This document shows positions 36,644 through 55,098 of a DNA stretch of 64,000 bases, piece after piece; position 1 is the first letter of the stretch, and each line of letters begins with the position of its first letter. Both the position numbers and the translations under genes were made by a program. The notes below the pieces were generated by a model that was given only the letters and a program-made list of their open reading frames with translations, searched no databases and was not told the DNA's origin. Source of the stretch: Pseudomonadota bacterium (GTDB lineage Bacteria; Pseudomonadota; Alphaproteobacteria; GCA-2746255); the NCBI GenBank assembly GCA_040752895.1, contig JBFMHN010000002.1, positions 330,368 through 394,367 on the forward strand, read 5' to 3'.

Positions 36644-36815
36644 TGTCCTCCGGGGGCCGCGCGTGTTGGGGCGGTCCTTTTCGCTTGACGCATGGTGGCC
36701 CGGCCTTCCGCCGGCGGGAAAAACTCCGTAATCGTAGGGGCGCTTAGGCCTGGCGTCAAAGGCCATCGGGCGCCGCGTCGCTTCGTTGCCTGCCATCGCG
36801 CGCCCGCTTCTTGGG

Positions 36816-51773: not shown

Positions 51774-52248
51774 ACCGCACGCGCGTGGCGAGATCGAGGT
51801 GGGCCTGGTGTCGCCCACCGCGGCGCAAGCGATCGCCGCGCTGCAGGCGGCCTGCTGCCTGGAGGCGTGGGGCGCGGCGGCGATCGCGCGCCTGCTCGGG
51901 GAGAAAATCGTCTTCGGCCTGTTTGCAACGATTGGGCGGCTTGAGCAAGGCGGGTCCCTCGCGGGCTTTGCGCTTTGCCGGGTGGCGGCCGGCGAAGGCG
52001 AGATCCTGTCCTTGGGCGTTCACCCCCAGGCGCGGCGCATCGGCGTCGCCGGCCGGTTGTTGGCAAGGGTGGAGGAGGAGGCGCGCCGCCGCTCTGCGCG
52101 GGCGATCTACCTAGAGGTTGCCGCCTCGAACGTTCCCGCCGCGGCGCTCTATGCGCGGCACGGCTTTTTCGAGGTGGGCCGTCGTCCCGGCTATTACGAG
52201 GGGCGGGAAAAGGGGGAAGACGCCCGGGTTCTTCGCCTTTCCCTTTAA
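51766..52248 (+). CDS. rimI: RimI-type ribosomal protein/N-alpha-acetyltransferase
   Basis: 160 residues from ATG 51766, overlapping tsaB by 8 bases. GNAT fold: ILSLGVHPQARRIGVAGRLL (acetyl-CoA-binding motif A with R-x-x-G-V/A-G) and AIYLEVAASNVPAAALYARHGF. RimI acetylates the N-terminal Ala of ribosomal protein S18. The RRIGVAG acetyl-CoA loop is slightly off the Q/R-x-x-G-x-G/A consensus. Confidence 0.92.
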   Translation: MPEPHARGEIEVGLVSPTAAQAIAALQAACCLEAWGAAAIARLLGEKIVFGLFATIGRLEQGGSLAGFALCRVAAGEGEILSLGVHPQARRIGVAGRLLARVEEEARRRSARAIYLEVAASNVPAAALYARHGFFEVGRRPGYYEGREKGEDARVLRLSL

Positions 52249-52323
52249 GGCTGCGGGGCCTTCCGATCCTGCATTCCTTCCGGCGGCCAATTTCGGTAGA
52301 GTGGAACGCGAAAGGAAACGCCC

Positions 52324-52761
52324 ATGCTGAAAGAAACCCCGCATTCGGCGGAAGGAACAAGCGACATCGAACTCTTGCGGCTCACGACCAACATCGTCGT
52401 CTCGCACGTCGCCAACAACCGCCTCCTTGTCGAAGAACTGCCGCAGCTCATCCGCGAGGTTTACGCCAGCCTAACGGGCGCCGGACGAAAGGACGCCCCG
52501 GCGGTCCAGCGTCCGCAGCCGGCGGTTCCCATCCGCAAATCCGTCACGCCGAACCACCTCGTCTGTCTTGAGGACGGGAAAAAATTGAAAATGCTGAAAC
52601 GGCATTTAAAAACGGCGTACAACTTGACGCCGGAAGAATACCGCACGCGGTGGCACTTGCCCCCGGATTACCCAATGACGGCTCCCGTTTATGCCGAACA
52701 GCGCAGCAAGCTGGCGAAGCAAATCGGCCTCGGCCTGCGTTCACGCGGTCGTAAAAAATAA
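52324..52761 (+). CDS. MucR/Ros family transcriptional regulator
   Basis: 145 residues. C-terminal Ros/MucR domain: NHLVCLEDGKKLKMLKRHLKTAYNLTPEEYRTRWHLPPDYPM. In the Ros zinc finger (Cys-x2-Cys-x9-His-x3/4-His) the second Cys is Asp here (CLED) and the last His position is Ala (KTAYN), so two of four zinc ligands are missing; zinc-independent homologues of this kind are known in alphaproteobacteria. MucR proteins silence many AT-rich promoters and affect exopolysaccharide, motility and cell cycle. Confidence 0.94.
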   Translation: MLKETPHSAEGTSDIELLRLTTNIVVSHVANNRLLVEELPQLIREVYASLTGAGRKDAPAVQRPQPAVPIRKSVTPNHLVCLEDGKKLKMLKRHLKTAYNLTPEEYRTRWHLPPDYPMTAPVYAEQRSKLAKQIGLGLRSRGRKK

Positions 52762-52797
52762 AGGGTAGAACCCGGTCCGGTCGAGGCCGAGACAGGG

Positions 52798-52826
52798 TTG
52801 TGAGGGGGTGGACCACCCTCTATACT
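52798..52826 (+). promoter_or_regulatory. Promoter of fur with palindromic spacer
   Basis: TTGTGA at 52798-52803 and TATACT at 52821-52826 with a 17-base spacer. Within the spacer, 52806-52818 is the perfect palindrome GGGTGGACCACCC; extended to 52804-52820 it has one mismatched pair and is centred exactly in the spacer, an ideal operator position. It does not look like a classical AT-rich Fur box. Transcription would start near 52833, upstream of fur. Confidence 0.65.
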
Positions 52827-52869
52827 TTACCACCAAAGCAACGGAAGCGATTTGCTTGCCGATGGAAAC

Positions 52870-53292
52870 ATGTCTTCCCGTATAGAACGCTTCTGCGAGA
52901 CCAGGGGTCTGAAGATGACGGAGCAGCGGCGAATCATCGCCCGCGTGCTTTCCGAATCGAAAGATCATCCAGACGTTGAGCGGGTTTATCAGCGCGCTTC
53001 GAAGATTGACGAGCGCATCAGCATCGCGACGGTTTATCGTACGATCCGGCTGTTCGAGGAAGCGGGCATCATCGAGAAGCTGGACTTCGGCGGCAATCGC
53101 GCCCGGTACGAAGAAATTCCGGAAATCCACCACGACCATTTGATCGACATGCGAAGCGGCAAGGTCATAGAGTTTCAGTGCAAGGCGATCGAAAAATATC
53201 AGCAGGAAGTCGCTGAAAAGCATGGGTACAAGCTCGTCGGTCACCGGCTCGAGCTTTACGGTGTACCCCTCGACAAACCAAAAACGAAATAA
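52870..53292 (+). CDS. fur: Fur/Mur-family metalloregulator
   Basis: 140 residues from ATG 52870 (a TTG at 52852 is an alternative). Winged helix with RISIATVYRTIRLFEEAGIIEKL as recognition region, and the regulatory metal site HHDH in PEIHHDHLIDMRSGKVIEF. The CxxC zinc motifs of enterobacterial Fur are absent, as in the alphaproteobacterial Fur/Mur branch, where the sensed metal may be Mn or Fe. It has its own promoter; the OlsB-type gene follows after 16 bases. Confidence 0.93.
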   Translation: MSSRIERFCETRGLKMTEQRRIIARVLSESKDHPDVERVYQRASKIDERISIATVYRTIRLFEEAGIIEKLDFGGNRARYEEIPEIHHDHLIDMRSGKVIEFQCKAIEKYQQEVAEKHGYKLVGHRLELYGVPLDKPKTK

Positions 53293-53308
53293 AAATGAGG
53301 ATCGAACG

Positions 53309-54232
53309 GTGCTCATAAAACCCAAAAAACCGCGCGGGCGTTTTCACGAGCGTCCGGCGGGGTGGTTGCCGAAATTCGCGCGCGCCATGCGCCCGCCCTA
53401 TACCTGGAAACGGTTCATCGCTGGCGTGCGGACGCCGCTGGGTTTCGTCGATCCCATCCAGAAAGTTCGCAGCAAAACGCTGGAAGTCCGCCTCGCCCGC
53501 GACGAACGCGAAGTGGACGCGGCGCTGGCTCTTCGCTACCGGGTCTTCTATGAGGAACTGCACGCCCACCCGACACCGGAAATGGCGGCGCGGAAACGCG
53601 ACTTCGACGAATTCGACACCGATTGCGACCACGTTCTGGTGGTTGATCACGAGCGGGTCGAAGGGCACGATTTCTCGAAGGCCGTGGTCGGCACGTACCG
53701 CTTGATACGCAGCGAGACCGCGGCAAACCATGGCGGGTTTTATTCGGCCGGCGAATACGACCTTTCCCGTTTGATGGAATATCCGGGGCGGCTTCTGGAA
53801 TTAGGCCGTTCCTGTGTGGACGCGGAGTACCGAAGCCGCGCGACGATGGAGCTGCTTTGGCGGGGGATTGGCGCCTATGTCGCATACCACGACGTCGATG
53901 TGCTGTTCGGCTGCGCGAGCCTGCCCGGCACGGACCTGGCGGCGCATGCCGAAGCGCTCACCTACCTGCACAAATACCATCTGGCGCCGCCGGCCATTCG
54001 GCCGCGGGCACTTCCCCATCGCTACGTTCCGATGAAATCGAACGTGGAGGTGGATCCGAAACGTGCCCTGGCCGCGCTGCCGACGCTGATCAAGGGCTAC
54101 CTTCGTCTTGGCGGGTTCGTTGGCGACGGGGCGGTCGTGGATGAGCAATTCGATACGACGGATGTGTGCATCGTCGTGAAGCGGGATCTGGTTCCGGACA
54201 AATATTTCCGCCACTTCGACGTGAAAAAATAG
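53309..54232 (+). CDS. olsB: OlsB-type ornithine/acyl-ACP N-acyltransferase (GNAT)
   Basis: 307 residues from GTG 53309 (GAGG eight bases upstream; basic N-terminus MLIKPKKPRGRF). Acetyltransf_5/OlsB core: LALRYRVFYEELHAHP, ELGRSCVDAEYRSRATMELLWRGIGAYVA and LFGCASLPGTD. OlsB transfers a 3-hydroxyacyl group from ACP to ornithine, giving lyso-ornithine lipid. The plsC-like gene next door fits OlsA. Substrate inferred from family and pairing. Confidence 0.88.
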   Translation: MLIKPKKPRGRFHERPAGWLPKFARAMRPPYTWKRFIAGVRTPLGFVDPIQKVRSKTLEVRLARDEREVDAALALRYRVFYEELHAHPTPEMAARKRDFDEFDTDCDHVLVVDHERVEGHDFSKAVVGTYRLIRSETAANHGGFYSAGEYDLSRLMEYPGRLLELGRSCVDAEYRSRATMELLWRGIGAYVAYHDVDVLFGCASLPGTDLAAHAEALTYLHKYHLAPPAIRPRALPHRYVPMKSNVEVDPKRALAALPTLIKGYLRLGGFVGDGAVVDEQFDTTDVCIVVKRDLVPDKYFRHFDVKK

Positions 54233-54246
54233 GCGGACAGAATCGA

Positions 54247-55098
54247 ATGGGTTCGCCCCTTCTCGCCTTCTTCCGCATTCTTGTCTATGTAAGCTGGACG
54301 TTTCTGCTCATTCCGATTCAGGAAATCGGGCTTCGCTTCGGTTTTGCCTATCGGCGTCGTCTTCCCCATTTTTATCATCGTTCCTGTTGCAAGATTTTCG
54401 GCTTTCGCCTGGTCCGCATCGGTCGGATAAGCGAGGCGCGTCCGACCCTGTTCGTTTCGAACCATACGTCCTATCTCGACATCACGATGCTTTCCGCGCT
54501 GATTCGCGGCGTTTCCCTTATCTCGAAGGCGGAAGTGGCGGCGTGGCCCTTTTTCGGCCGGCTGGCGCGGCTTCAGGAAACCGTTTTCATCGAACGCAAC
54601 GCGCTGCGAAGTTCCACGCACCGGGACGCCGTCCACGAACGCCTGCAGAGCGGCGACCAGTTGGTTCTCTTCCCGGAAGGGACCAGCAACGACGGCAACC
54701 GCGTGCTTCCCTTCAAGAGCGCGCTTTTCAGCGTCGCCGAGAAAACATTCCAGGGGGAACCGCTGACCGTACAGCCGGTCTCGATCGCCTACACGCGTCT
54801 TGACGGCATACCGTTGGGGCGGGGCTGGCGGCCCTATTACGCCTGGTACGGGAGCATGGAACTCGCCCCGCATTTCTGGCGGATGGCGGGGCTCGGGAAG
54901 GCGACGATCGTCGTTCAGTTCCACCCGCCGGTGACCATTGCCGCCTTCGACGGCTCGCGGAAGGCGATGGCCGAGGCTTGCCAGCGCGTGGTGGCGGAAG
55001 GCGTTGCGGCGGCGATTACCGGAAAGCAGGCGCCCTCGCTCGAAGAACGGCCCGAAGCCGGACCCCCGGGCGCAAGACTTCGCCCGGCCGATTCTTGA
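54247..55098 (+). CDS. olsA: PlsC-family acyltransferase, likely OlsA
   Basis: 283 residues from ATG 54247. N-terminal membrane helix (LAFFRILVYVSWTFLLIPI), H-x4-D motif SNHTSYLDIT (His73, Asp78) and FPEGTSNDG. O-acylates lyso-ornithine lipid in OlsBA systems, or lysophosphatidate as PlsC. Adjacent olsB supports OlsA. The last ~20 residues are a Pro/Glu-rich tail. Confidence 0.86.
   Translation: MGSPLLAFFRILVYVSWTFLLIPIQEIGLRFGFAYRRRLPHFYHRSCCKIFGFRLVRIGRISEARPTLFVSNHTSYLDITMLSALIRGVSLISKAEVAAWPFFGRLARLQETVFIERNALRSSTHRDAVHERLQSGDQLVLFPEGTSNDGNRVLPFKSALFSVAEKTFQGEPLTVQPVSIAYTRLDGIPLGRGWRPYYAWYGSMELAPHFWRMAGLGKATIVVQFHPPVTIAAFDGSRKAMAEACQRVVAEGVAAAITGKQAPSLEERPEAGPPGARLRPADS

Follow-up and report, generated by a model that had tools for sequence, protein, structure and literature searches.

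Among described alphaproteobacterial systems, Fur sites that overlap the -35 and -10 promoter elements are known from Caulobacter, with gel-shift support (PMC3751524), and for Gluconacetobacter one Fur site between the -35 and -10 elements has been predicted (PMC9368920). MucR is described as favouring AT-rich DNA (PMC9957244), and the sigma-70 consensus for S. meliloti is given as CTTGAC-N17-CTATAT (PMC2873474). In the window analysed here, the whole stretch of 64,000 nucleotides, a candidate promoter ahead of fur carries a palindrome in its spacer that an earlier note had read as a repressor site. That idea is a reasonable one, given the Fur sites that overlap the -35 and -10 elements in Caulobacter and the one predicted between them in Gluconacetobacter. 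Like those operators, the palindrome lies between the two hexamers and has dyad symmetry. Unlike a Fur operator, it is a GC-rich dyad of 13 bp rather than the 19-bp Fur motif, it has no Fur-box match above chance and it is unconserved. The comparison with congeners points with high probability to an ordinary sigma-70-type fur promoter whose drifting spacer acquired a species-private dyad by chance.

Results

Candidate promoter ahead of fur and its conservation

The features are as follows.

52324 to 52761, forward strand: mucR, Ros/MucR zinc-finger regulator (PF05443, E 4.8e-47), upstream of fur
52798 to 52803, forward strand: putative -35 element TTGTGA, identical in all four genomes compared
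52804 to 52820, forward strand: spacer GGGGGTGGACCACCCTC, 17 bases, of constant length in all four genomes and identical in 3 of 17 columns
52806 to 52818, no strand: perfect odd dyad GGGTGGACCACCC with 6-bp arms, present in one of the four genomes and most likely due to chance
52821 to 52826, forward strand: putative -10 element TATACT, identical in all four genomes and followed by an invariant T
52870 to 53292, forward strand: fur, Fur-family metal regulator of 140 aa (PF01475, E 4.1e-38)

The pattern TTGTGA-N17-TATACT occupies 52798-52826, 36 bases past the mucR stop and 43 bases ahead of the fur ATG, and scores 9 of 12 matches as a sigma-70-type hexamer pair with a spacer of 17. With one more base on the left it reads (G/C)TTGTG-N17-(C/T/G)TATAC across the four genomes and falls in register with the S. 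meliloti consensus, sharing the TTG core, the TATA of the -10 element and a 17-base gap in every genome; it differs in its -35 element, TTGTG(A) as opposed to TTGAC. It is most likely an ordinary housekeeping promoter, presumably read by a sigma-70-type factor.

The comparison set consists of four genomes of one genus, one genome per species, namely the source genome (G000) and the congeners G001, G002 and G003. Each of the four contains the exact pattern a single time, directly ahead of fur, which bears out the earlier claim of a fur promoter and makes this assignment strongly supported by conservation. When up to one mismatch is allowed there are 6 matches in the four genomes as against 5 for the reversed pattern, and because these counts barely differ the promoter draws its weight from where the four exact matches sit rather than from how many there are. 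One of the two additional matches is in G003 (L125); the other, in G000 (L126), sits within a coding sequence that we read as narI-like and is taken as chance. In an alignment of the four genomes all columns of the -35 and -10 hexamers are identical (6/6 and 6/6, or 12/12 together) against 3/17 in the spacer, which changes about as fast as the noncoding background; the corresponding counts are 6/61 upstream, 5/43 from the -10 element (plus one T) to the ATG and 37/60 over the first coding bases. The fur ATG at 52870 is common to all four genomes, and the protein is 78, 79 and 80% identical to those of the three congeners.

The order of genes upstream, read from the sequences and translations of the four genus rows, is tsaB-rimI-mucR-fur in G000 and G001, rimI-fur in G002 and tsaB-fur in G003, and the promoter is retained in the latter two, where mucR does not adjoin fur. 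As the upstream gene order differs and the promoter stays, the promoter therefore travels with fur and not with a neighbour. The analysis thus also yields, for four genomes of an alphaproteobacterial genus, a fur promoter with phylogenetic support that stays with its gene despite upstream reordering. The search beyond the genus covered the best 80 named genome loci of 258 relatives, with 150 bases upstream of fur (less in shorter loci) and 15 bases inside it. The best match to TTGTGA-N17-TATACTT is 13/13 in L031, which is probably the same genome as G001, and at most 10 in the other 79 loci, 7 of which reach 10; 43 of 1600 shuffles also reached 10 and 2 reached 11. No trace of the promoter is thus seen outside the genus in the fur upstream regions of the best 80 of these 258 relatives.

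Geometry, chance frequency and conservation of the spacer dyad

The sequence feature in the earlier note, a TTGTGA-N17-TATACT promoter with a centred dyad that has one mismatch when stretched over all 17 bases, is confirmed from the coordinates. The A at 52812 is the midpoint of GGGTGGACCACCC and exactly that of the spacer as well, and pairing across the full 17 bases matches at 7 of 8 positions with the sole mismatch at 52805/52819. Seven or more of the 8 centred pairs match in 67 of the 63,984 17-mers of the window (0.10%), and 386 (0.60%) contain a perfect dyad of 6 bp or longer; the corresponding values for 17-mers of equal G+C (n = 8,317) are 0.13% and 0.82%. Perfect odd dyads with 6-bp arms number 35 in the window as against 19-36 in ten base shuffles. 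The dyad is therefore rare for one chosen promoter (about 0.1%), yet the window-wide frequency of such dyads is about that of chance, and this one was picked out among many features of 64 kb. On the assumption of 1000-2000 promoters per genome of this kind, chance alone would yield one or two with a centred dyad and about ten with a looser one.

A control set of promoter-like sites was drawn by comparing 380 kb of the window's own contig with two congeners (360 kb in G001, 160 kb in G003), a comparison in which 295 of 296 similarity-based genes were tested. It contains 17 sites common with congeners, fur among them, and is not exhaustive, since a run on the window only (64 genes) gave 3 sites of which one (gene at 36649, minus strand, G001 only) is absent from the 17. 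Several of the shared sites, e.g., TTGGCA-N17-TATACT, TTGACA-N16-TATATT and TTGACG-N17-TAGATT, have exact hexamers and spacers that share just 7-11 bases; fur shares 7 of 17 spacer bases with G001 and 5 of 17 with G003. The fur promoter thus behaves like several other shared promoter-like sites, with constant hexamers and a drifting spacer, in a set that is biased, since a site had to match between genomes at 10 or more of the 12 hexamer positions to be retained (19 of 23 congener rows have 12/12), and that probably includes some coding sites, judged from high spacer identity. A private constraint on the fur hexamers beyond promoter function is unneeded, as the other shared sites keep their hexamers too. 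A 6-bp spacer dyad is found at fur alone among the 17 sites, with 0 of the 16 others and 0 of their 21 congener rows having one.

The centred dyad pairs number 7 of 8 in G000, 3 of 8 in G001, 2 of 8 in G002 and 0 of 8 in G003, and the spacers of the three congeners contain no 6-bp dyad of any kind. The 13-mer GGGTGGACCACCC occurs once in the 2.29-Mb genome, with no second copy, and no second place within the window matches it with up to 2 mismatches. The relaxed form GGGTGGNCCACCC, with the centre left free, is found at 5 places in the genome with at most 1 mismatch, and the reversed control at 7. Of these 5 places, the four besides fur lie inside open frames that reach 372 to 720 aa, and the only frames over the fur site measure 162 and 200 aa. 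Conservation in close relatives had been set beforehand as the point of refutation for the repressor proposal, and the dyad is missing from all three congeners, each of which is another species. A search for the 13-mer ahead of other genes had also been proposed, and the full genome holds it only at fur, with the relaxed matches no more frequent than in the control. A repressor with a single target would not need further operator copies.

Discussion

The best explanation, and a very probable one, is that an ordinary sigma-70-type fur promoter carries a species-private chance dyad in a drifting spacer. Transcription of fur would start a few tens of bases ahead of the ATG, and RNA polymerase would require the two hexamers and the 17-base distance between them, which selection would maintain; the bases between the hexamers would be free to drift, and drift in one species may have left a GC-rich, nearly perfect centred dyad for which no dedicated binding protein need exist. 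Several findings count against this explanation: a centred dyad this good is expected at about 0.1% for one chosen promoter, the 16 other shared sites have no 6-bp spacer dyad, and a potential for RNA hairpins in three of the four genomes suggests that the spacer may not be wholly free. The locus serves as a worked example of how a textbook-looking operator can dissolve on comparison with congeners, in which the hexamers and their spacing are constant and the dyad is not.

One alternative is that a repressor, be it Fur, MucR or another protein, binds the dyad in the fur promoter as its operator and blocks RNA polymerase there. Its position in the spacer suits steric repression, as with the Fur sites that overlap the -35 and -10 elements, it sits precisely at the middle of the spacer and pairs at 7 of 8 positions, and it is the sole 6-bp spacer dyad among the 17 shared promoter-like sites. 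However, the dyad is absent in three of three congeners, the genome has neither a second copy nor an excess of near-copies, and the spacer drifts like those of several other shared promoter-like sites, so that the repressor site of the earlier note is not supported and an operator here is very improbable. For Fur itself, the motif used was the classic 19-mer, in place of an alphaproteobacterial Fur matrix, and its best match in 52760-52869 is 8/19 at 52837, outside the dyad, a score that 990 of 1000 shuffles reach. A Fur box in the promoter region is rejected on this measure, as its best score is below chance expectation, and the remark in the earlier note that the dyad does not resemble a Fur box holds for the same 19-mer. 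The described preference of MucR for AT-rich DNA (PMC9957244) likewise counts against the operator. A lineage-private operator, with a dyad that arose in this species alone, would have given fur a repressor that does not act on it in the congeners and would, if true, mean that the control of iron or manganese was rewired recently, but the sequence comparison leaves it very unlikely.

It is likewise scarcely credible that the dyad activates transcription through DNA distortion in the manner of MerR. Sites of the MerR family are dyads in the spacer, as here, but such promoters have spacers of about 19-20 bases, whereas that of fur is 17 in all four genomes, and the dyad is not conserved. A terminator reading of the dyad is rejected, as no terminator-like site is found at the fur promoter; all 3 such sites in 52200-53400 lie elsewhere on the minus strand, and no T run follows the hairpin stem at the promoter.

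RNA read through 52798-52828 could fold into a hairpin with G-U pairs in three of the four genomes, G003 being the exception. The 30-base promoter RNAs have predicted folds of -13.1 (G000), -11.1 (G002), -9.2 (G001) and -3.9 kcal/mol (G003), with dinucleotide-shuffle z values of -2.28, -3.83, -3.72 and -0.54, respectively. Against shuffled spacers with the hexamers held fixed, p is 0.007, 0.0025, 0.008 and 0.53 in the same order, and a Fisher combination gives 0.00007 for all four genomes and 0.0008 without G000, in tests that are not independent as the genomes share descent. The same shuffle test gives no significant p value (0.056, 0.28, 0.42 and 0.99) for the best near-centred dyad across the full length of the promoter DNA. 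Pairing might act in the RNA, with read-through transcripts from upstream genes forming a hairpin over the fur promoter where they stop or are processed. The folds in G000, G002 and G001 beat nearly all shuffled spacers, and at the remaining 16 shared sites p falls below 0.05 nowhere in G000 and in a single one of the 21 congener rows. However, G003 has no hairpin, the 46-base fold of the window site is unremarkable (z -0.65), the terminator-like sites of the region are on the opposite strand, the three hairpin genomes have a common ancestry, and the conserved hexamers themselves supply some of the pairing, with each other and through G-U pairs. A role in RNA is accordingly very unlikely, and the hairpin potential is a minor and unexplained lead that fits the chance explanation imperfectly.

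Neighbouring genes

Pfam matches in the neighbourhood comprise TsaD, ROS_MUCR, FUR, Acetyltransf_5 (GNAT), Acyltransferase and UPF0004 with Radical_SAM and TRAM, which we read as probable tsaB, mucR, fur, GNAT acyltransferase, PlsC-type acyltransferase and miaB genes; the gene that separates tsaB from mucR was identified by eye as a rimI-like GNAT gene. The mucR gene adjoins fur in two of the four genomes (G000 and G001), and both of these have a second mucR elsewhere that is 55 and 51% identical to that of the window (loci L139-L144). The single mucR genes of G003 (54%) and G002 (53%) are also elsewhere, on a contig other than that of fur. In G002, one in-frame TAG falls in the fur match (L002) and one in-frame TAA in the mucR match (L142), which may simply be earlier gene ends. 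An inverted repeat, AAGCAA-N10-TTGCTT, is present at 52836-52857 between the -10 element and the fur ATG and is not evident by eye in the congeners. Close behind fur, at 53222-55098, come a GNAT acyltransferase gene (Acetyltransf_5, weakly FeeM) and a gene for a PlsC-type acyltransferase, and because they follow so closely fur may be co-transcribed with lipid genes.
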